Shown here one piece after another: positions 6,905 to 32,056 of a DNA stretch of 64,000 bases. Position 1 is the first letter of the stretch, and each line of letters starts with the position of its first letter. A program made the translations under genes and the position numbers. Below the pieces are notes generated by a model. The model did no database searches. It was not told where the DNA came from and was given only the letters and a program-made list of their open reading frames with translations. The stretch is from Flavobacteriaceae bacterium (GTDB lineage: Bacteria > Bacteroidota > Bacteroidia > Flavobacteriales > Flavobacteriaceae), in contig JAENXC010000002.1 in the NCBI GenBank assembly GCA_016649715.1, forward strand, positions 124,001-188,000. Reading direction: 5' to 3'.

Positions 6905-7090
6905 ATGAACGAAGATCAATTTAAAGGAAAATGGAACCAAGTGAAAGGTAAATTGAAGCAAAAATATGCAGACCTTACCGATGATGACCTAAAGTACGCC
7001 GAAGGAAAATCTGACGAATTGCTTGGTCGCCTTCAAGAGAAAACGGGTGAAACCAAAGAGAAATTGAAGGAACAGATAGACAAGTGGTAG
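6905..7090 (+). CDS. CsbD-family stress protein
   Basis: A 61-residue, highly charged helical protein starting [29 protein letters not shown], the textbook CsbD pattern, with a second half [21 protein letters not shown]. CsbD proteins are induced by general stress in other bacteria, but their biochemical role is unknown. Followed by a strong terminator, so transcribed alone. Confidence 0.93.
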
Positions 7091-7130
7091 TTTTCACCTA
7101 AACTTAATTGCCACTTTATTTGAAGGCCGG

Positions 7131-7176
7131 CCCATCAAAATTTCAACTATTGAAATTTTGATGGGTCTTTTTTTTT
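7131..7176 (+). terminator. Intrinsic terminator after csbD-type gene
   Basis: A perfect 15-bp stem (CCCATCAAAATTTCA at 7131-7145 against 7151-7165) with a five-base loop is followed by a run of T interrupted only by one C. Confidence 0.9.
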
Positions 7177-7268
7177 ATGCTGTAACTTAAAATTTCTTAG
7201 GGATAATTATCTTTTTAATAGACAAATACATAAATTCGTATTAATATAATCCTAAAAACCCAACTAAA

Positions 7269-8057
7269 ATGAAAAAAATTACTTTTATTCTCCTCTTTTT
7301 TGCCGTTTACCTAAACGCGCAAACAGGCAACTACCAAAACGGAGATGTAGTAGATGACTTTACTGTAACAGATACAGAAGGAGTTGTGCATAATTTGTAC
7401 TCCATAACTGCACAAGGCAAGTATGTGTGGTTGGATTTCTTCTTTGTGGATTGCGGGCCCTGCCGGCAAACTGCTCCAATTTTTAATGAATTTTTTGATA
7501 AATACGGCTGTAATGATGGAGAGGTTTATTGTCTTTCAATCAATCTTGGATATGATAATGATGCCTATGTTGAATGGTATGAGCAGCAATTTGGCGGTAC
7601 TTTCAATCACGCGCCAGCTGCAAGTGGAGATGGTGGCTCAGGCCCAGTAACCTCTAATTTTGGCGTGAACGCTTTTCCTACATACTGTTTGATTGGACCA
7701 GACAACACAATGATAAATAGAGATATTTGGCCACTTGCAGGAGTACAGACTTTTGAAAACACGTTCCCACAGGGCTTTAATCCACCAGTTATGCAATGTA
7801 CTATAATTGGCGTTGAAGATGTTACTGCGTTTGATTTCAACATTTACCCAAGTATTTCAAACGGAAATGTGAACATTAACCTGCCAAGCAGCATGGAGTT
7901 CTCCATAGCGATATTTAACACCCTTGGACAACAGGTTTTTCAGAACAACTATTCAGAAAAAAACATAAACTTGAACCTTCAACTTGCGCCAGGCGTTTAT
8001 ATGGTTAAGGTTGCTGCAGATAATAGCTCGGTTACCAAAAGGATAATTATAGAATAG
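7269..8057 (+). CDS. T9SS-sorted thioredoxin-fold protein
   Basis: A 262-residue secreted protein. A signal peptide (residues 1-17, ending LNAQ) precedes a TlpA-like thioredoxin domain: DFTVTDTEGVVHNL, then DFFFVDCGPCRQTAP with the redox CGPC near residue 62, and a cis-Pro region NAFPTYCLIGPDN. Residues about 185-262 form a T9SS type A domain (FNIYPSISNGNVNINLP ... PGVYMVKVAADNSSVTKRIIIE-like end). It probably acts on disulfides outside the cell or on the surface; substrate unknown. Followed by its own terminator. Confidence 0.9.
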   Translation: MKKITFILLFFAVYLNAQTGNYQNGDVVDDFTVTDTEGVVHNLYSITAQGKYVWLDFFFVDCGPCRQTAPIFNEFFDKYGCNDGEVYCLSINLGYDNDAYVEWYEQQFGGTFNHAPAASGDGGSGPVTSNFGVNAFPTYCLIGPDNTMINRDIWPLAGVQTFENTFPQGFNPPVMQCTIIGVEDVTAFDFNIYPSISNGNVNINLPSSMEFSIAIFNTLGQQVFQNNYSEKNINLNLQLAPGVYMVKVAADNSSVTKRIIIE

Positions 8058-8083
8058 TTTCTCCCCAGCATTTGTTGAGCAAG

Positions 8084-8122
8084 ACCCACGCTACCTTCTA
8101 AAAAAATGTGCGTGGGTTTTTT
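8084..8122 (+). terminator. Terminator of the T9SS thioredoxin gene
   Basis: ACCCACGC (8084-8091) pairs with GCGTGGGT (8110-8117) and is followed by a T run. Confidence 0.85.
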
Positions 8123-8248
8123 ATGTTTTCATTTTTAAAGCCATTTCATTTCCAGCCTTTCCTATTTTTTCACTAACTTTATTTCTCTCCCCGTTGTGGC
8201 TCCTGCCGCGCTATAATTTATTGTATAATCTTTTAAAACCGAAACCTT

Positions 8249-8728
8249 ATGGCAAACATAAGCTACAACCAAATCCACCAAACGCTGGACGAGGCCACGA
8301 TGACGAGTATTCTTCAAAAAATCCGGGAAATATGGGACCTACTGCCCAAAGGCAGCCTAACCGATACGGAACGCAAACGCTACCGCGCGCTGGACGTTCG
8401 CAATCTGGCCTTTGTGGAAGATGTGGTGCGGCTCAAGAACGGCATTGGCGCAAGTATACTGCCCGCAGTGTTGCTAAACGATAACATAGATACAGACCTA
8501 AAACTTTTTAAACAACTAAAAACCCTACGCGCCCGTGTGTTGGGTTTAGACTATTTGCTGAAAGATGTGGAGCGCATTGTGGGGCACGAGTCTTATGGTG
8601 TGGGACTCACACACTACGGAATGTATAAGGTTTCATCTAAGGTGGGCGTGCCCAACGCAAAGAGCGCGGTGGATGCGCTGGAGTGGCGGTTTAAGAATCA
8701 GGGCAATAGACCTTTAGAGGAACTATAG
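8249..8728 (+). CDS. Unrecognised 159-residue protein at the start of the accessory island
   Basis: The ATG at 8249 opens a 159-residue soluble protein I do not recognise. It has no signal peptide or membrane segment. It is mostly helical, with a basic stretch TDTERKRYRALDVRNLAFVEDVV, a leucine-rich middle (DTDLKLFKQLKTLRARVLGLDYLLKDVERIV) and a glycine/tyrosine segment YGVGLTHYGMYKVSSK. The coding sequence is richer in G and C than the next genes, suggesting a different history. It precedes the 21-bp repeat array and the HTH gene on the same strand. DNA or phage relations cannot be shown from sequence alone. Confidence 0.75.
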   Translation: MANISYNQIHQTLDEATMTSILQKIREIWDLLPKGSLTDTERKRYRALDVRNLAFVEDVVRLKNGIGASILPAVLLNDNIDTDLKLFKQLKTLRARVLGLDYLLKDVERIVGHESYGVGLTHYGMYKVSSKVGVPNAKSAVDALEWRFKNQGNRPLEEL

Positions 8729-8748
8729 CCGTAATTATAATATGAAAT

Positions 8749-8956
8749 ATAACTATTACTAACTTGTGTAACTCTATTACTTACAGCTGTAGCTAAATAA
8801 CTTGCAAGTGTAACTAAAATGAATACAGATGTAACTAAAATACTAACCTTAGTAACTAGAAAACATACAACTGTAACTAAGTTACCAACAGGAGTTATTA
8901 AATTACTAACTGCTGTAACTATTTTGCTTGCATCAGTATCTAATTTACTTACTATT
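8749..8956 (+). repeat. Array of nine 21-bp units, iteron/operator-like
   Basis: A core GTAACT (variants GTAGCT, GTTATT, GTATCT) begins at 8768, 8789, 8810, 8831, 8852, 8873, 8894, 8915 and 8936, a spacing of exactly 21 bases each time. A tenth, 19-base unit starts at 8749. The consensus is GTAACTaaaTtACttACagct. In many units the first 13 bases form a small dyad GTAA-N5-TTAC; unit 6 is perfect (GTAACTAAGTTAC). Units are otherwise quite diverged. One forward frame reads the units as degenerate heptads (VTKLLTA-like), interrupted once by TAA at 8798. The array ends 30 bases before the HTH gene at 8987. Confidence 0.85.
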
Positions 8957-8986
8957 CATCCATTTTAAACGCTAATACTTACCATT

Positions 8987-9334
8987 ATGGCAACAAAGAA
9001 AGAATTAAACGCCCCAAACATAGGGAGTATGCTAAGAACATATTATAAAAAGCACAAAATAAACAGAGCCGCACTGGCAAGGAAGCTAAACCTGCACCGG
9101 GTGACCGTCGCTAAATATGATGCACGCAGTAGCCTGCAAGTACGTATTCTTTGGGAAGTTGCAATAGCTTTGGAACACAACTTTTTTGCAGACATAGCCG
9201 CGCAGCTACCCCAAACCTACACCACAAACCTACCCGAAGACACCACCCAGGCCCAACGCATTGCGCAATTGGAGGGGGAAAACAAGATACTGGCGGGGCA
9301 GTTGGAGTTGTTGAAGGGGGTGATGGGGAAATAG
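8987..9334 (+). CDS. Helix-turn-helix DNA-binding protein
   Basis: A 115-residue protein. Residues about 12-60 match a Cro/CI-type HTH: GSMLRTYYKKHKINRAALARKLNLHRVTVAKYDARSSLQ, with recognition helix HRVTVAKYD. The C-terminal 35 residues (AQRIAQLEGENKILAGQLELLKGV) form a short coiled coil, probably for dimerisation. It lies directly downstream of the 21-bp array, which is the obvious candidate binding site. That link is an inference. Start is the ATG at 8987 (MATKKELN). Confidence 0.85.
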   Translation: MATKKELNAPNIGSMLRTYYKKHKINRAALARKLNLHRVTVAKYDARSSLQVRILWEVAIALEHNFFADIAAQLPQTYTTNLPEDTTQAQRIAQLEGENKILAGQLELLKGVMGK

Positions 9335-9376
9335 ATTATATTTATATTTTTTATCAGAATTGACATTCTAATCTCA

Positions 9377-10390
9377 ATGAATTCAAAAGAGTATAAAATT
9401 TACATGAGTCGGTGGAAAATATTTACACCTCTAATTCTCAGTTTATGTTTTGTTGTTTTAATGATTCTTTTTCCTTTTGCGAAAGATACACTAAACACTA
9501 TTTTCTACTATTTAGCATTATTATTATTCGGATCTGGGACAATACTTTTCATTTATTATTTTTTTTTCAGGAGGCCTCATATTATAATTTCAAAAACTGG
9601 AATATGGGATCATACCATGAAAACTGGTGAAGTACGATGGGAAGATATTGAAGCAATACAATTATTAAATTTTTTGGGTGAAAAGTTTATCTCGTTGATT
9701 TTAAGCGAGGATTTTTTAAAGAAGAAAAATATAAAAAGGAGGTCCACAATATTTAATAAATTCTTTGGTTCATCTTCTCATCAAATTAGTATCGGCCTTA
9801 TTCATATAGATGAAATGTTTCTCGCCGAATTTATTATAAAAATGATGGAAGCTTCAGACCTAGAAAGGGAACAAATTTTCAAAAATTTTAAAGTTGAAGA
9901 GCCAAATCATAGTGAATACATCACTCAGTTTTTATTTAATAGCTTACTCATATTGTTTTTAGTTTATGCTTCCTATTATTATTTATGGATAATATGGGTG
10001 GTAATGATACCTACTGGACTTGCAAGTATAGAAGCTAGATGGAGGATTTTTGATCCAACTATCACTAAAATTTGTAGTTATATAGCATTACTAGGCATCG
10101 TTTACATTACAGTATTCTCACTAGTGTTTGTTACCCTGGACGCACAACTACAGGGTTTAGGTGAAAAAATAGAAATAGGTATAAACGATTTCGGAACCAA
10201 AATGGGCCGCTATCCAAGAAATATTGATGAAATATCCAAAAACCTCGATCTTAACATTATTCAAATGTGGCAATTGGAGACCGTAAAATATAAATTTGAC
10301 GAAAATAGAAAAGGGCACATTCAATATATTTCTCCAAAAGGTATTTTGAAAGAATATGATGCTTTGTGGAATGAATGGGTAAAAAAATAA
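9377..10390 (+). CDS. Four-segment membrane protein with PH-like domain
   Basis: A 337-residue protein I cannot name. Two membrane segments (about residues 15-32 and 38-60) precede a cytosolic beta-rich domain, IIISKTGIWDHTMKTGEVRWEDIEAI and following, that resembles the STM3941/PH-like domains of bacterial membrane proteins. Two more segments (about 185-210 and 225-250) are followed by a C-terminal domain with GTKMGRYPRNIDEISKNLDL. It starts 42 bases after the HTH gene and is strongly AT-rich, like typical accessory genes. Function unknown. Confidence 0.7.
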   Translation: MNSKEYKIYMSRWKIFTPLILSLCFVVLMILFPFAKDTLNTIFYYLALLLFGSGTILFIYYFFFRRPHIIISKTGIWDHTMKTGEVRWEDIEAIQLLNFLGEKFISLILSEDFLKKKNIKRRSTIFNKFFGSSSHQISIGLIHIDEMFLAEFIIKMMEASDLEREQIFKNFKVEEPNHSEYITQFLFNSLLILFLVYASYYYLWIIWVVMIPTGLASIEARWRIFDPTITKICSYIALLGIVYITVFSLVFVTLDAQLQGLGEKIEIGINDFGTKMGRYPRNIDEISKNLDLNIIQMWQLETVKYKFDENRKGHIQYISPKGILKEYDALWNEWVKK

Positions 10391-10404
10391 TAAATATTCC
10401 TCCT

Positions 10405-10530
10405 CTACCGAGCGTTCGCAATACCAGCCTGCCCACATAAAAACAAAAACACCCAAGCAAACGCTTAGGGGTTTTTCAATCAAACTAACTAAAAATCCCC
10501 GCTACCTCGCGTTTGCAATGCATGGCCACT
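10405..10530. repeat. Two REP-like copies of CTACC..GCGTT.GCAAT
   Basis: CTACCgaGCGTTcGCAAT (from 10405) recurs as CTACCtcGCGTTtGCAAT (from 10502), 97 bases apart. The second has a near-palindromic core GCGTTTGCAATGC. Their GC content contrasts with the flanks. The first direct-repeat copy of the clpB terminator lies between them. They may be REP/MITE-type elements, but no transposase is nearby. Confidence 0.5.
10443..10498. repeat. Direct repeat copy 1 of the clpB 3' terminator block
   Basis: About 56 bases, AACAAAAACACC..AAGCaaacGCTTAGGGGTTTTTCAAT..AACTAACTAAAAATCC, with a terminator hairpin (AAGC/GCTT extended by CCC/GGG) and T run. The same block, with few mismatches and small gaps, recurs at 11348-11404 beside the clpB stop. 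It also terminates the 9377-10390 gene. Confidence 0.75.
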
Positions 10531-10585
10531 CAAACAAGCCCCCAAAATTTCTTCTAAAATCACAGAATAGATTTATAAAAAAAAC

Positions 10586-10620
10586 TTGCACTTGATTCAC
10601 ATTCGGTGTAAATTTACACC
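10586..10620 (+). promoter_or_regulatory. parDE promoter overlapped by a palindromic operator
   Basis: TTG (10586-10588), 20 bases, then TAAATTTA (10609-10616) gives a Bacteroidota promoter. The perfect 16-bp palindrome GGTGTAAATTTACACC (10605-10620) covers the -7 box. Type II antitoxins of the ribbon-helix-helix class normally repress their own promoter by binding such sites, so this is the likely operator. Confidence 0.75.
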
Positions 10621-10632
10621 AAACTAAAAATT

Positions 10633-10872
10633 ATGGCTAGGCAAAGCATCTCATTAACAACCCCAAACGATGAATGGTTAAAAGAGCAGGTCGACAATAA
10701 AGAGTACGTCAGCAAAAGTGAACTTGTAAATGATTTAATCAGACAGGCAAGAAACCAGCAAGCGCAAATAGACTGGATTAGTGCTAAACTGGAGACAGCC
10801 GAAAACAGTGGGTTTACGAACGATAGTAAGAAACAGATTTTAAAACAATCAAAGTCTTTGCTTAATGGCTAA
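10633..10872 (+). CDS. parD: ParD-like ribbon-helix-helix antitoxin
   Basis: A 79-residue antitoxin. The N-terminus MARQSISLTTPNDEWLKEQVDNKEYVSKSELVNDLIRQAR is the RHH DNA-binding unit (strand, helix, YVSKSELVND turn, helix). The C-terminal half is polar and should wrap the toxin. It overlaps the toxin gene by eight bases, the usual coupling of type II pairs, and has a palindromic operator on its promoter. The gene pair lies between two copies of the clpB terminator block. Confidence 0.92.
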   Translation: MARQSISLTTPNDEWLKEQVDNKEYVSKSELVNDLIRQARNQQAQIDWISAKLETAENSGFTNDSKKQILKQSKSLLNG

Positions 10873-11152
10873 GTATAAATTAAGCAATGAAGCCAAGGAA
10901 GATTTAATCCGGATTCATCACTACGGAGTCCATAAATTCGGCATGGCGCAAGCAGATAAATACTACGCTACGTTTTTTGAATATTTTGATAGCATTGCCC
11001 AAAGTCCTTTCTCCTTTGAATCTGTTGATTACATTAAAGCAGGATATAGACGCTGTGTCTGTGGCTCAGATAGTATTTACTACAGAATAAAAGATGATGT
11101 TGTTGAGATTATGGCAATTGTAGGAAGTCAGGACTTGAAAAATATGCTTTAG
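10865..11152 (+). CDS. parE: ParE/RelE-superfamily toxin
   Basis: A 95-residue toxin of the ParE/RelE fold: YKLSNEAKEDLIRIHHYGVHKFGMAQADKYY at the N-terminus, then GYRRCVCGSDSIYYRIKDDVVEIMAIVGSQDLKNML, with the family's GYRR..G.H/SIYYR core and the terminal ML. ParE members poison DNA gyrase while RelE members cut mRNA. The long N-terminal helices and the ParD partner favour ParE. Intact, no frameshift. Confidence 0.92.
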   Translation: MAKYKLSNEAKEDLIRIHHYGVHKFGMAQADKYYATFFEYFDSIAQSPFSFESVDYIKAGYRRCVCGSDSIYYRIKDDVVEIMAIVGSQDLKNML

Positions 11153-11208
11153 TATTTGCCCGTTATTGTGCGTTTATAACATTTGGACACCCAAATAAAA
11201 TAAATAAA

Positions 11209-11349
11209 ATGGAAAATAAAACTTCTGAAGAAGAAGAAAGCAAAATGACGGAACTAAGAAATGCGCTTCAACAAGGAATAGATAGCGGAATGGTGACAGA
11301 CTTTGATGCAAAAAAACATCTACAAGATCTGCATAGTCGATTTCTATAA
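11209..11349 (+). CDS. 46-residue ParD-like orphan antitoxin
   Basis: A short frame from the ATG at 11209: MENKTSEEEESKM, then TELRNALQQGIDSGMVTDFD and AKKHLQDLHSRFL. The part LRNALQQGIDSGMVTDFDAKKHLQDLH looks like the toxin-binding C-terminus of ParD antitoxins (pattern LRxALxxGxxSGxxxxFDxxxxL). The ribbon-helix-helix N-terminus is missing and replaced by an acidic stretch. It starts 56 bases after the parE stop, on the same strand. It may be a remnant of a second antitoxin or a functional mini-antitoxin. Too short for most gene callers. Confidence 0.6.
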   Translation: MENKTSEEEESKMTELRNALQQGIDSGMVTDFDAKKHLQDLHSRFL

Positions 11350-11404
11350 CAAAACTCCTAAGCAAAAGCTCAGGGGGTTTTTCAATCTAACTAACTAAAA
11401 ATCC
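11348..11404. repeat. Direct repeat copy 2, terminator between parDE island and clpB
   Basis: Near-identical to 10443-10498. The hairpin CCTAAGC-aaa-AGCTCAGG and flanking A and T runs can act in both directions, for the island reading rightward and clpB reading leftward. It ends three bases before the clpB stop codon. Confidence 0.75.
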
Positions 11405-11407
11405 AAT

Positions 11408-14008
11408 CTACTCAACTAAATTCTCTTGATTTCTAAAAACCAATGCTTCATTAAAACTATCTAATAGTATAATACTGTCCGTAGTAATTTTTCCGGCTAA
11501 TATTTCTTTACTCAGTTCGTTTAGCACTTCGCGCTGTATCACCCTTTTCACGGGTCTTGCGCCGTATTGTGGGTCGTAGCCCTTTTGGGCGAGGTATGCA
11601 ATGGCCTCTGGGGTTGCGTCCAGCACGATGTTCTGTTTCAACAACATTTTGGATACACCTTTCAGTTGCAGCTCCACAATTTTGAGGATGTCCTTTTTAG
11701 AAAGTGGTGTAAACATAATGATGTCGTCTATACGGTTTAAGAACTCTGGGCGCACGGTTTGTCTCAATAGTGCGAGTACTTCCACCTTGGCGCCTTCCAT
11801 TGCGGTTTCGGGGTCTTTTACGGTATCAAAACGCTCTTGGATTATATCGCTGCCCATATTGCTGGTCATAATGATAATGGTGTTCTTGAAATCGGCTACA
11901 CGGCCTTTGTTGTCCGTTAAGCGGCCTTCATCCAAAACCTGCAACAGGATGTTGAAGGTGTCTGGGTGTGCTTTTTCAATCTCGTCCAACAACACCACGC
12001 TGTATGGTTTGCGGCGCACGGCTTCTGTAAGCTGCCCACCTTCTTCATAACCAATATATCCCGGAGGCGCACCAATCAATCGGCTCACGCTGTGGCGCTC
12101 TTGATATTCGCTCATATCTATCCGCGTCATTGCGCTTTCATCATCAAACAGGTATTCAGCCAAAGCTTTTGCGAGTTCGGTTTTACCCACGCCGGTTGTT
12201 CCCAAGAAAAGGAAACTGCCAATGGGTTTCTTTTCGTCCTGCAATCCCGCACGGCTACGGCGAATGGCATCGCTCACTGCGGTAATGGCTTCATATTGCC
12301 CAACCACACGTTTGTGCAGATGGTCTTCCAGGGTCAAAAGTTTTTCACGGTCGCTCTGAAGCATTTTGGTAACGGGAATTCCGGTCCATTTTGCGACCAC
12401 TTCGGCAATGTCCTCGCGGGTTACCTCTTCTTTTATCATAGAAGTGGCCTGATCGTTTTCGGCAAGTTGGGTTTCCAGTTTGCTCAAGGCAGTTTGCGCA
12501 TCTTTAATTTTTCCGTAACGAAGTTCAGCCACTTTCCCAAAATCGCCATCGCGTTCAGCGCGTTCAGCTTCTAACTTGTAATCCTCAATTTGGGTTTTTA
12601 GATTTTGAACGTTGTCCACAACCTCTTTTTCGCTTTGCCATCTTGCGTTCAGTTCGTTGCGCTCTTCCTTTAAATTGGCAAGATCTGCGTGAAGCGCTTT
12701 CAGCTTTGTTTCATCTTTTTCACGTTTTATCGCTTCTATTTCAATCTCGAGCTGCATAATTTTTCTGTCCAAAACGTCCAGCTCTTCTGGTTTGGAATTG
12801 ATTTCCATTCGAAGTTTACTGGCAGCTTCGTCCATCAGGTCAATAGCCTTATCGGGAAGAAAACGGTTGGTGATGTATCTTTCGGAAAGTTCCACGGCAG
12901 CAATAATAGCTTCGTCTTTGATACGCACCTTGTGGTGGGTTTCATATTTCTCCTTTATTCCTCTTAAAATTGAAATGGCGCTCTCAGTATCGGGTTCATC
13001 CACCATCACTTTTTGGAAACGGCGCTCCAGCGCTTTGTCTTTTTCGAAGTATTTTTGATATTCGTCCAAAGTAGTTGCGCCTATTGCGCGCAGTTCGCCT
13101 CGGGCGAGGGCAGGTTTCAGGATGTTTGCGGCATCCATAGCGCCCTGTCCGCCACCGGCACCAATAAGGGTGTGGATTTCGTCAATAAAAAGCACAACAT
13201 CGCCTTCGCTGGAAGTTACTTCTTTGATAACGGCTTTTAAGCGCTCTTCAAATTCCCCTTTGTATTTTGCGCCGGCAATCAATGCACCCATATCCAAAGA
13301 ATAGATTTCTTTGGTCCGCAAATTTTCGGGCACATCGCCGTCCACGATTCTGTGGGCGAGGCCTTCTGCGATTGCGGTTTTACCTGTTCCTGGTTCCCCG
13401 ACGAGCATCGGGTTGTTTTTGGTTCTTCGCGTAAGGATTTGAAGAATTCTTCTAATTTCCTCATCACGGCCAATAACGGGATCAAGTTTGCCGTCGCGAG
13501 CCATCTGGTTTAAATTTTTGGCGTACTTATTTAAAGAATTATAAGTCTCTTCAGCACTTTGTGAGGTAACGTTTTCGCCACCGCGCAGTTCTTGGATTGC
13601 GGCTTTCATTCCTTTTTCGGTAACGCTTTGGTCTTTTAAGCTCTGTGCAATTGCGCTTTTGGAATTTAGAATTGCCAACAGAAGGTGCTCAATGGAAACG
13701 TATTCGTCGCCCATCTTTTTAGCGATATTGCTGGCCTCAAGGACAGTTTTGTTGGCTTCGCGCGAAAGCATAATATCGCCACCTGACACCTTTGGAAAGC
13801 TTTCCAATTGCTTGTCCAAAATTTGTTTGAGGGTAACGAGGTTTACGTTAAGTTTTTTTAAGATGAAAGGGGCAACGTTTTCATCTACCTCAAAAATAGC
13901 TTTGAGGATGTGTTCGTTTTCAATCTGCTGGTGACCGTAACCCTGCGCAATTTGCTGCGCTTGTTGAATGGCCTCTTGACTTTTAATGGTGAAATTGTTG
14001 AAATTCAT
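11408..14008 (-). CDS. clpB: ATP-dependent disaggregase ClpB
   Basis: An 866-residue Hsp100 that, with DnaK, pulls apart protein aggregates. Order: double Clp N-repeat (residues about 1-145), AAA1 with Walker [14 protein letters not shown] about residue 206 and Walker [10 protein letters not shown], the long coiled-coil middle domain (about 410-530) that marks ClpB rather than ClpA/ClpC, AAA2 with [16 protein letters not shown] about 607 and [13 protein letters not shown], and the C-terminal domain. Full length. Upstream on the minus strand lies TTTGTATTTGAAAC, a possible -7 region. No CIRCE element was seen. Confidence 0.97.
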
Positions 14009-30718: not shown

Positions 30719-32056
30719 TTATCCTCTTCCCCGTGGGCTAGCTTCTCTTGAAGAACTGCTTCTGGAAGTGTTCGCTTTTGAACTGCTTCTTGAAGGAGTG
30801 GAGGATTTAGTTACTGTATTGCGTTTCGCCATTTCCCTTTTTGGGGCTTGGGTTGTATTCTGCTTTGCGGAGCTGCTTCTGTTATTTGATGTTTCAGTTC
30901 GTGGTTGCTTTTGAACTGCTCTATCATTTGAAATAGCTCTTGTGTTATTTGAACGAACCGTATTCTCACTTCGGGTATTTTTCACATTGTTTTGAGAATA
31001 ACTTTTTACCGCATCGTTTCTATTGTTTCCGCTTTTAACTTTTATATCGCGGTTATCATTGGCAGTAGTTGTCCGGGTCGGAACGTTGTTTGAATTGTTT
31101 CGAGTGTTGCGGACGTTTCGGTCAACGCTTGTAGCTCCTTTGCTGTTGCTACTACTGTTTCTGCTCGTAACATTGCTTCGTGTATCATTGTTGCGAACTG
31201 GATTGTCGCTTCGCGTTTCATTGTTGCGAATTGAATTGTTACTTCGCGTATCATTATTGCGAACTGAATTGTTACTTCGCGTATCATTATTGCGAACTGA
31301 ACTATTGCTTCGTGTATTATTGGAGGCAACCATGGTGTTTTTTCTATTTGGGTTGTAATCCCGGTTAACGGAAGCCCTTCCTTTTTTATTATAAACACGG
31401 GATCCTGGGCGATAAAAATCCCTGCGACTGTTGTGATAGGCTACCCTATTTCGGTTTTTGTAATAAACCACGTGGTCGTGATAGCTGTAACGCACTGGCG
31501 CATAATATCTTCTGTAAGGCATATCATAAACTATGCAATGGCTATAAATTGGCGGCGCATAATACACGTGCCAAGGACGATATACATAATAAGGATTGTA
31601 CATATTGATTAGCCCCGAACAATGCGAAAAATAGCCGTAATTATTATAGATTACGTGAAGTCCACCGACGCGAACAATTCGTCTGTCATTATACTGGATA
31701 TCCACATTTCCCGCTTGGGTTATGCGGCCGTATTCGTCGTAATAAATTTGAACATTTTCCACTTGAATCACTGCTCCATAATCGTCATACTGCACATAAG
31801 TGTCGTAATCATAACCTGAATTAAAACTCACATTTACATTCGGAGTACTAATGGTTACTTGTGAACCGGTTTGTGGCCCGACATATACAAAATCAAATTG
31901 GCCGTCTGGGAAAACGGAGAATTCCACATCGCCTTCAACGAAGATGTACGCGTTACCGTCATAGCCTCTTCTGTTATTGTTTTCACTTTCGTGGGAAGTG
32001 GCATTTGCTGAAAATCCCGTCAAAAGAATGCTAAAAATAAATGCTATGTTTTTCAT
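30719..32056 (-). CDS. Secreted low-complexity repeat protein
   Basis: A 445-residue exported protein, signal peptide ending FSANA about residue 17. Residues about 25-180 are rich in Tyr, Asp and Val (YIFVEGDVEFSVFPDGQFDFVYVG, NVDIQYNDRRIVRVGGLHVIYNN). A basic Tyr/His part follows (YYAPVRYSYHDHVVYYKNRNR). The C-terminal half is Asn/Ser/Arg-rich with an 11-residue repeat, RNNDTRSNNSV, in at least four copies, and ends in Arg/Gly. I use ATG 32056; the longer frame runs through a repeat element. A sticky surface or matrix protein is plausible, not shown. Confidence 0.8.
   Translation of the reverse strand: MKNIAFIFSILLTGFSANATSHESENNNRRGYDGNAYIFVEGDVEFSVFPDGQFDFVYVGPQTGSQVTISTPNVNVSFNSGYDYDTYVQYDDYGAVIQVENVQIYYDEYGRITQAGNVDIQYNDRRIVRVGGLHVIYNNYGYFSHCSGLINMYNPYYVYRPWHVYYAPPIYSHCIVYDMPYRRYYAPVRYSYHDHVVYYKNRNRVAYHNSRRDFYRPGSRVYNKKGRASVNRDYNPNRKNTMVASNNTRSNSSVRNNDTRSNNSVRNNDTRSNNSIRNNETRSDNPVRNNDTRSNVTSRNSSSNSKGATSVDRNVRNTRNNSNNVPTRTTTANDNRDIKVKSGNNRNDAVKSYSQNNVKNTRSENTVRSNNTRAISNDRAVQKQPRTETSNNRSSSAKQNTTQAPKREMAKRNTVTKSSTPSRSSSKANTSRSSSSREASPRGRG

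Follow-up and report, generated by a model that had tools for sequence, protein, structure and literature searches.

The window analysed here is a 64,000-nucleotide stretch of the genome of a Flavobacteriaceae bacterium (contig JAENXC010000002.1, positions 124,001 to 188,000). It carries on its forward strand three elements in a row: a gene for a 159-amino-acid protein, named p160 here (8249-8728), a tandem array of ten 21-bp units (8752-8961) and a gene for a 115-amino-acid helix-turn-helix (HTH) protein of the XRE or lambda-repressor-like type (8987-9334), whose start codon lies 25 bp past the last unit of the array. These elements belong to a module, in which p160 is usually the constant gene.

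Allowing a one-base drift in the placement of the units, all nine steps between them were exactly 21 bp, the outermost units being more degenerate than the inner ones. The consensus, TAAATTACTTACAGCTGTAAC, is a rotation of the one given in an earlier reading of this DNA from its letters alone (the sequence-only reading). That reading had described nine GTAACT-type cores at a step of 21 bases, which was confirmed both by their positions within 8768-8941 (starts at 8768, 8789, 8810, 8831, 8852, 8873, 8894, 8915 and 8936, with zero slip) and by shuffling, the autocorrelation at lag 21 having a z of 8.8 against a maximum of 4.3 among 200 dinucleotide-shuffled versions of this 420-bp segment. The perfect dyad GTAA-N5-TTAC that it had placed in the sixth unit was found in the unit at 8873, and the dyad score of the array gave P = 0.010 relative to column permutation. 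When the whole window was scanned in 152 tiles of 420 bp, z reached at least 5 in two of them, namely the tile containing the array (lag 42, z 6.3) and another that starts at 31081 (lag 33), and Tandem Repeats Finder recovered part of the array (8767-8880, period 21, score 65). The exact phased core pair GTAACT-N15-GTAACT was confined, in the 3.4-Mb genome, to the array of the window, with three overlapping matches, the reversed-pattern control giving six matches.

The AlphaFold2 model of p160 (predicted local distance difference test score, pLDDT, 87.9; predicted template modelling score 0.67) is all-helical, with main helices at residues 15-31, 39-44, 50-63, 79-131 and 137-149, one of them 53 residues long. 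Neither Pfam nor NCBIfam gave a convincing family for it, nor any nucleoside triphosphatase (NTPase) family match, and fold searches, which included the PDB and are weak tests, returned no convincing relative, DNA-binding or other. Four copies of p160 lie at separate places in the genome of the window. Matches were present in 13 of 148 genomes searched (its own included), all of one genus. By profile search p160 was detected in 6 of 349 genomes of the family and 31 of 395 of the class; for the phylum, where the alignment used was wider, the figure was 29 of 375.

The HTH gene beside the array, with its coiled coil, had also been foreseen by the sequence-only reading, and the AlphaFold2 model (pLDDT 84.5) agrees with it, showing an XRE-type HTH fold and, at the C-terminus, a helix of the kind seen in coiled coils. 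The structures matched in the PDB were the XRE proteins P22 c2, HipB, C.BclI and C.Esp1396I (probability about 1.0; best E 5.4e-3, none at or below 0.001). Pfam HTH_26 matched 9 of 22 members of the group at E <= 0.1 (best 3.8e-4), the member in the window falling below this cut-off, and no NTPase family matched the protein. Its gene can be divided into a variable N-terminal part (9020-9175; helices 12-23, 27-34, 38-42 and 52-62), predicted to bind DNA, whose identity tracks array similarity between loci, and a conserved C-terminal part (9176-9331), which starts with HNFF and includes the helix 86-114.

Linkage of the arrays to p160 and to the downstream genes

An array was called in a flank when the autocorrelation reached a z of at least 5, 46 lags being tested. 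In the discovery set, from which p160 matches shorter than 60 amino acids and identical proteins had been removed and in which flanks below 260 bp were not counted, 72 of the 86 3' flanks of p160 carried an array, with peak lags of 21 (43 flanks), 42 (16), 22 (4), 43 (4) and 44 (5) and none outside these, versus 3 of the 89 5' flanks (lags 20, 35 and 42). A later set of p160 genes, scored by the same rule after removal of eight matches to known proteins, had arrays in 19 of 34 3' flanks, all at lags of the discovery set, and in two of 34 5' flanks, both at lag 21. The array rate falls from 84% in the discovery set to 56% in the later one, and the wider alignment also adds more distant p160 genes. 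Peaks below the threshold occurred at lag 21 or 42 in three of the 14 misses of the discovery set (L081, L125 and the first copy in L109) and, just short of the limit, in two of the 15 later misses, L208 (z 4.9, lag 42) and L209 (z 4.8, lag 43). The HTH gene could be reached in 23 of 25 loci examined, the other two ending too soon, and in all 23 the gap between p160 and this gene had its top lag at 21, 22 or 42-44.

The gene on the 3' side of the 72 arrays was an XRE-HTH gene in 35 cases and a gene of another kind, encoding 82 amino acids, in 12, neither being found within 800 bp in the remaining 25. The sequence-only reading had asked whether homologues of the HTH and 159-amino-acid proteins always lie beside such an array; a strong linkage was indeed found, and these 25 loci show that it is not invariable. 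None of the 14 p160 genes devoid of an array had an HTH or 82-amino-acid gene, and every HTH gene with p160 upstream (39/39) had an array upstream of itself. In 50 loci the HTH profile match began -3 to 131 bp past the end of the array. Homologues of the HTH gene without p160, distant ones included, bore an upstream array in 15 of 37 cases; two more peaked at lag 41 and one at lag 15, and no array was detected in the 73 flanks downstream of HTH genes. The lag of 41 in the HTH relatives of L152 and L153 amounts to 20.5 bp per unit.

Some loci had other arrangements. A strong 35-bp array lies 5' of p160 in L106; in L117, L240 and L242 a 21/42-bp array lies on the 5' side of p160 and the 3' flank has none; and two neighbouring p160 genes, with a strong array beside just one of them, were seen in L109, L111 and L224.

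The module, consisting of p160, about ten sites two helix turns apart and often a gene for a DNA-binding protein, spans the Bacteroidota and is apparently undescribed, as no description of such arrays with these genes was found among the matches listed in the open-access literature, judged by titles and the openings of abstracts.

Fixed spacing and variable sequence of the arrays

Over 92 distinct arrays, each of 6 to 17 units, 640 steps were of 21 bp, 111 of 22 bp and 3 of 20 bp (a one-base drift around the period was allowed). The sequence of the units varies from locus to locus, close relatives excepted, and in composition they run from AT-rich to GC-rich, so that the suspicion that spacing had been held while the bases drifted was well founded. 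The mean identity between units was 0.585 to 0.637 at unit distances of 1 to 8, a pattern more in keeping with selection for a motif than with recent tandem duplication. The dyad score was significant (P < 0.05) in 42 of the 92 arrays, an example of a dyad unit being ATCCTACTCGAGTAGGAT in L007. An alternation of A and B units over 42 bp was considered and rejected, as it holds in just 9 of 90 arrays. The hypervariability of the repeats, which have little but their spacing in common, could not be recognised from a single sequence; it means that a search with the consensus of the sequence-only reading would miss most relatives, and motif searches of that type would overlook such arrays in general.

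Array sequence and HTH domain change together. Among pairs whose p160 proteins are at least 60% identical, arrays were alike only when the DNA-binding domains of the HTH proteins were alike, and in none of 34 pairs when these domains were less than 45% identical; unrelated arrays were found even beside p160 proteins that are 92% identical. The loci are mosaics: p160 on one side and the HTH C-terminus on the other are conserved, and the array plus the N-terminal HTH domain that lie between them seem to be swapped as one cassette. Nature seldom provides an experiment of this kind: across a phylum the DNA feature is kept solely in its helical period, its sequence being free to vary in step with the DNA-binding domain encoded beside it, and the dozens of pairs of protein and array on a constant scaffold could allow an XRE recognition code to be read.

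Interpretation of the module

We consider, with a probability of roughly 0.6, that the array serves as a set of many sites dedicated to one protein, the DNA-binding protein whose gene comes next. An array of operators, with putative sites, is also the best supported of the possibilities raised in the sequence-only reading. Binding of the HTH protein to the array is very probable, judging from the covariation; autoregulation of the HTH gene through the array has about even chances. Molecules of the HTH protein, probably dimers held together via the coiled coil, would occupy the ten or so sites, which share one side of the helix because they are spaced two turns apart, and the bound proteins would line up without a break on one face of the DNA, immediately ahead of their own gene. 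The simplest role of this nucleoprotein row would be to repress or tune the HTH gene, each copy of the module having its own HTH specificity and a matching array. As the conserved partner of the locus, p160 might be recruited to the row, which we propose tentatively; this would place a widespread protein family without a known fold beside a predicted DNA-bound complex. Two results weigh against a target of the adjacent protein: the 25 of 72 p160-linked arrays with neither an HTH nor an 82-amino-acid gene within 800 bp, and a first measure of covariation that gave no effect of the HTH domain, which was taken to be dominated by base composition.

A wider proposal, which we regard as doubtful, is that the module is a self-specified DNA lattice, in which p160, perhaps a new fold, would work with any sites that match the adaptor of the locus at a two-turn repeat. 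Specificities would be swapped as cassettes, XRE-HTH or 82-amino-acid adaptors being interchangeable, and the whole would constitute a motor-less, orthogonal tether or lattice resembling a segrosome, of a new DNA-organising or defence-related class.

It is improbable, among the rival explanations, that the array is centromere-like, with the HTH or 82-amino-acid protein as adaptor and p160 as structural anchor or pairing partner of a segrosome-like tether lacking an NTPase motor. Its parts and layout (a small adaptor, a multi-repeat site upstream and families of specificity) resemble ParR/parC (PMC9426499, PMC5016525), and p160 keeps its array even at loci that lack the adaptor gene. However, p160 matches no NTPase family, and a constant motor gene such as those of ParMRC, TubZRC and ParABS was not seen among the listed neighbours, the genes located downstream of the array or of the HTH gene varying by locus (by eye, with no family scan); moreover, the scattered copies within a genome and the patchy presence in the class do not suit an essential centromere.

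In logic the module is nearest to ParR/parC, and it would work like these or like XRE operators; a role in partition is proposed only by likeness. In ParMRC systems, ParR adaptors and repeat sites diversify together into families of binding specificity that determine plasmid compatibility (PMC9426499), and the parC repeats of R1, pB171 and pSK41 are of 10-20 bp (PMC9426499, PMC5016525). The small DNA-binding adaptor and the repeats upstream of the genes are shared with those systems, for example with the Clostridium perfringens families. In contrast, ParR is typically a ribbon-helix-helix protein and ParM an actin-like ATPase, whereas the module has an XRE-type HTH and no NTPase match; ParM diversifies together with ParR and parC, whereas p160 can remain 92% identical while the array and HTH domain change; and the period of the module is fixed at 21/22 bp regardless of sequence. 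CRISPR arrays also lie beside a conserved gene, but the units of the module are contiguous, of 21/22 bp, with no spacers and a mean mutual identity of about 0.6, unlike a CRISPR, in which nearly identical repeats alternate with unique spacers. The XRE operator systems (HipB, P22 c2 and the C-proteins of restriction-modification) have the same HTH domain fold and partly palindromic units, with operators that lie beside the regulator's own gene and are few in number; they are not known to have 6-17 sites in exact phase, and have no p160. The Par protein of pSK1 combines an HTH with a coiled coil and has a repeat site upstream of its own gene. It differs from the module in being plasmid-borne and lacking p160. 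The system is a single-protein partition system (PMC11500499).

Less probable again is binding of the array by p160, or by the product of a gene elsewhere, with the adjacent HTH or 82-amino-acid gene as just one possible partner. The 25 arrays that lack both genes are in its favour, and array similarity climbs somewhat with p160 identity. Against it stand the unrelated arrays beside 92% identical p160 proteins, the arrays kept by 15 of 37 HTH homologues without p160 and the outcome of the fold searches. That the array is transcribed and acts as RNA, in the form of small RNAs or hairpins, is quite unlikely. In its favour, 42 of the 92 arrays have dyad-symmetric units, and no terminator-like hairpin separates p160 from the array in the window; but such a hairpin was present in 26 of the 75 gaps between p160 and array (about none in shuffles), Rfam matched no family at 7000-11500, and the common feature is the helical period of 21/22 bp rather than a hairpin, half of the arrays having no dyad.

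Iteron arrays with a spacing of about two turns are known from plasmid origins, and the sequence-only reading had accordingly thought of a plasmid-like origin. Replication iterons have, however, very little probability here, since no Rep gene was recognised by eye among the neighbours, p160 is found at four separate places in the genome and the p160 of the window was unmatched in 72,556 plasmid and 50,697 phage records. The gene or relic of a heptad-repeat protein, suggested by the equivalence of 21 bp to seven codons and by one nearly open frame in the window, can practically be dismissed, because steps of 22 or 20 bp break the frame in 20 of 92 arrays and open frames were not in excess over the 72 arrays of pure 21-bp steps (53 of 432, versus 60.8 with a standard deviation of 6.1 under the null).

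Locus history and neighbouring genes

The interval between smpB and clpB was compared in 21 of the 28 genomes of the genus (the window and 20 others, the other seven being left out), and the module was present in five of them, namely the window, G016, G010, G017 and G026. In the same interval of G013, HTH residues 100-115 alone remain, after tlpA, which suggests loss of the module. Remnant stretches of the C-terminal HTH region (about residues 74-118) are scattered in the genomes of the genus (loci L045, L135, L136, L137 and L175); in L045, from G017, the beginning of p160 is fused to the final part of the HTH gene, and four C-terminal remnants lie within about 11 kb in L132, from G004.

The gene that follows the HTH gene differs in nearly every locus of the genus, as judged by eye over the window (9377-10390) and L001-L071. 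This accessory gene is often preceded by a promoter-like sequence, TATATTTG, and some of these genes, on visual inspection with no family search, resemble those of AAA, P-loop or nuclease proteins. Genes resembling tyrosine recombinases, also recognised by eye, lie beside two modules with related HTH proteins (7743-8567 on the forward strand of L191 and 229-1353 on the reverse strand of L192). The variable genes and TATATTTG after the HTH gene, together with these recombinase-like genes, raised the idea of an integron-like cassette. Recurring, partly palindromic intergenic sequences were seen after the HTH stop codon, near accessory genes, in L136, L137, L024, L011 and L018.

Elsewhere in the window, a tandem repeat with a 33-bp unit (4.4 copies, 87% matches) occupies 31176-31321, and a toxin-antitoxin pair, ParD-like (with a Pfam score at the cut-off) and ParE-like, lies between the module and clpB, at 10633-11152.
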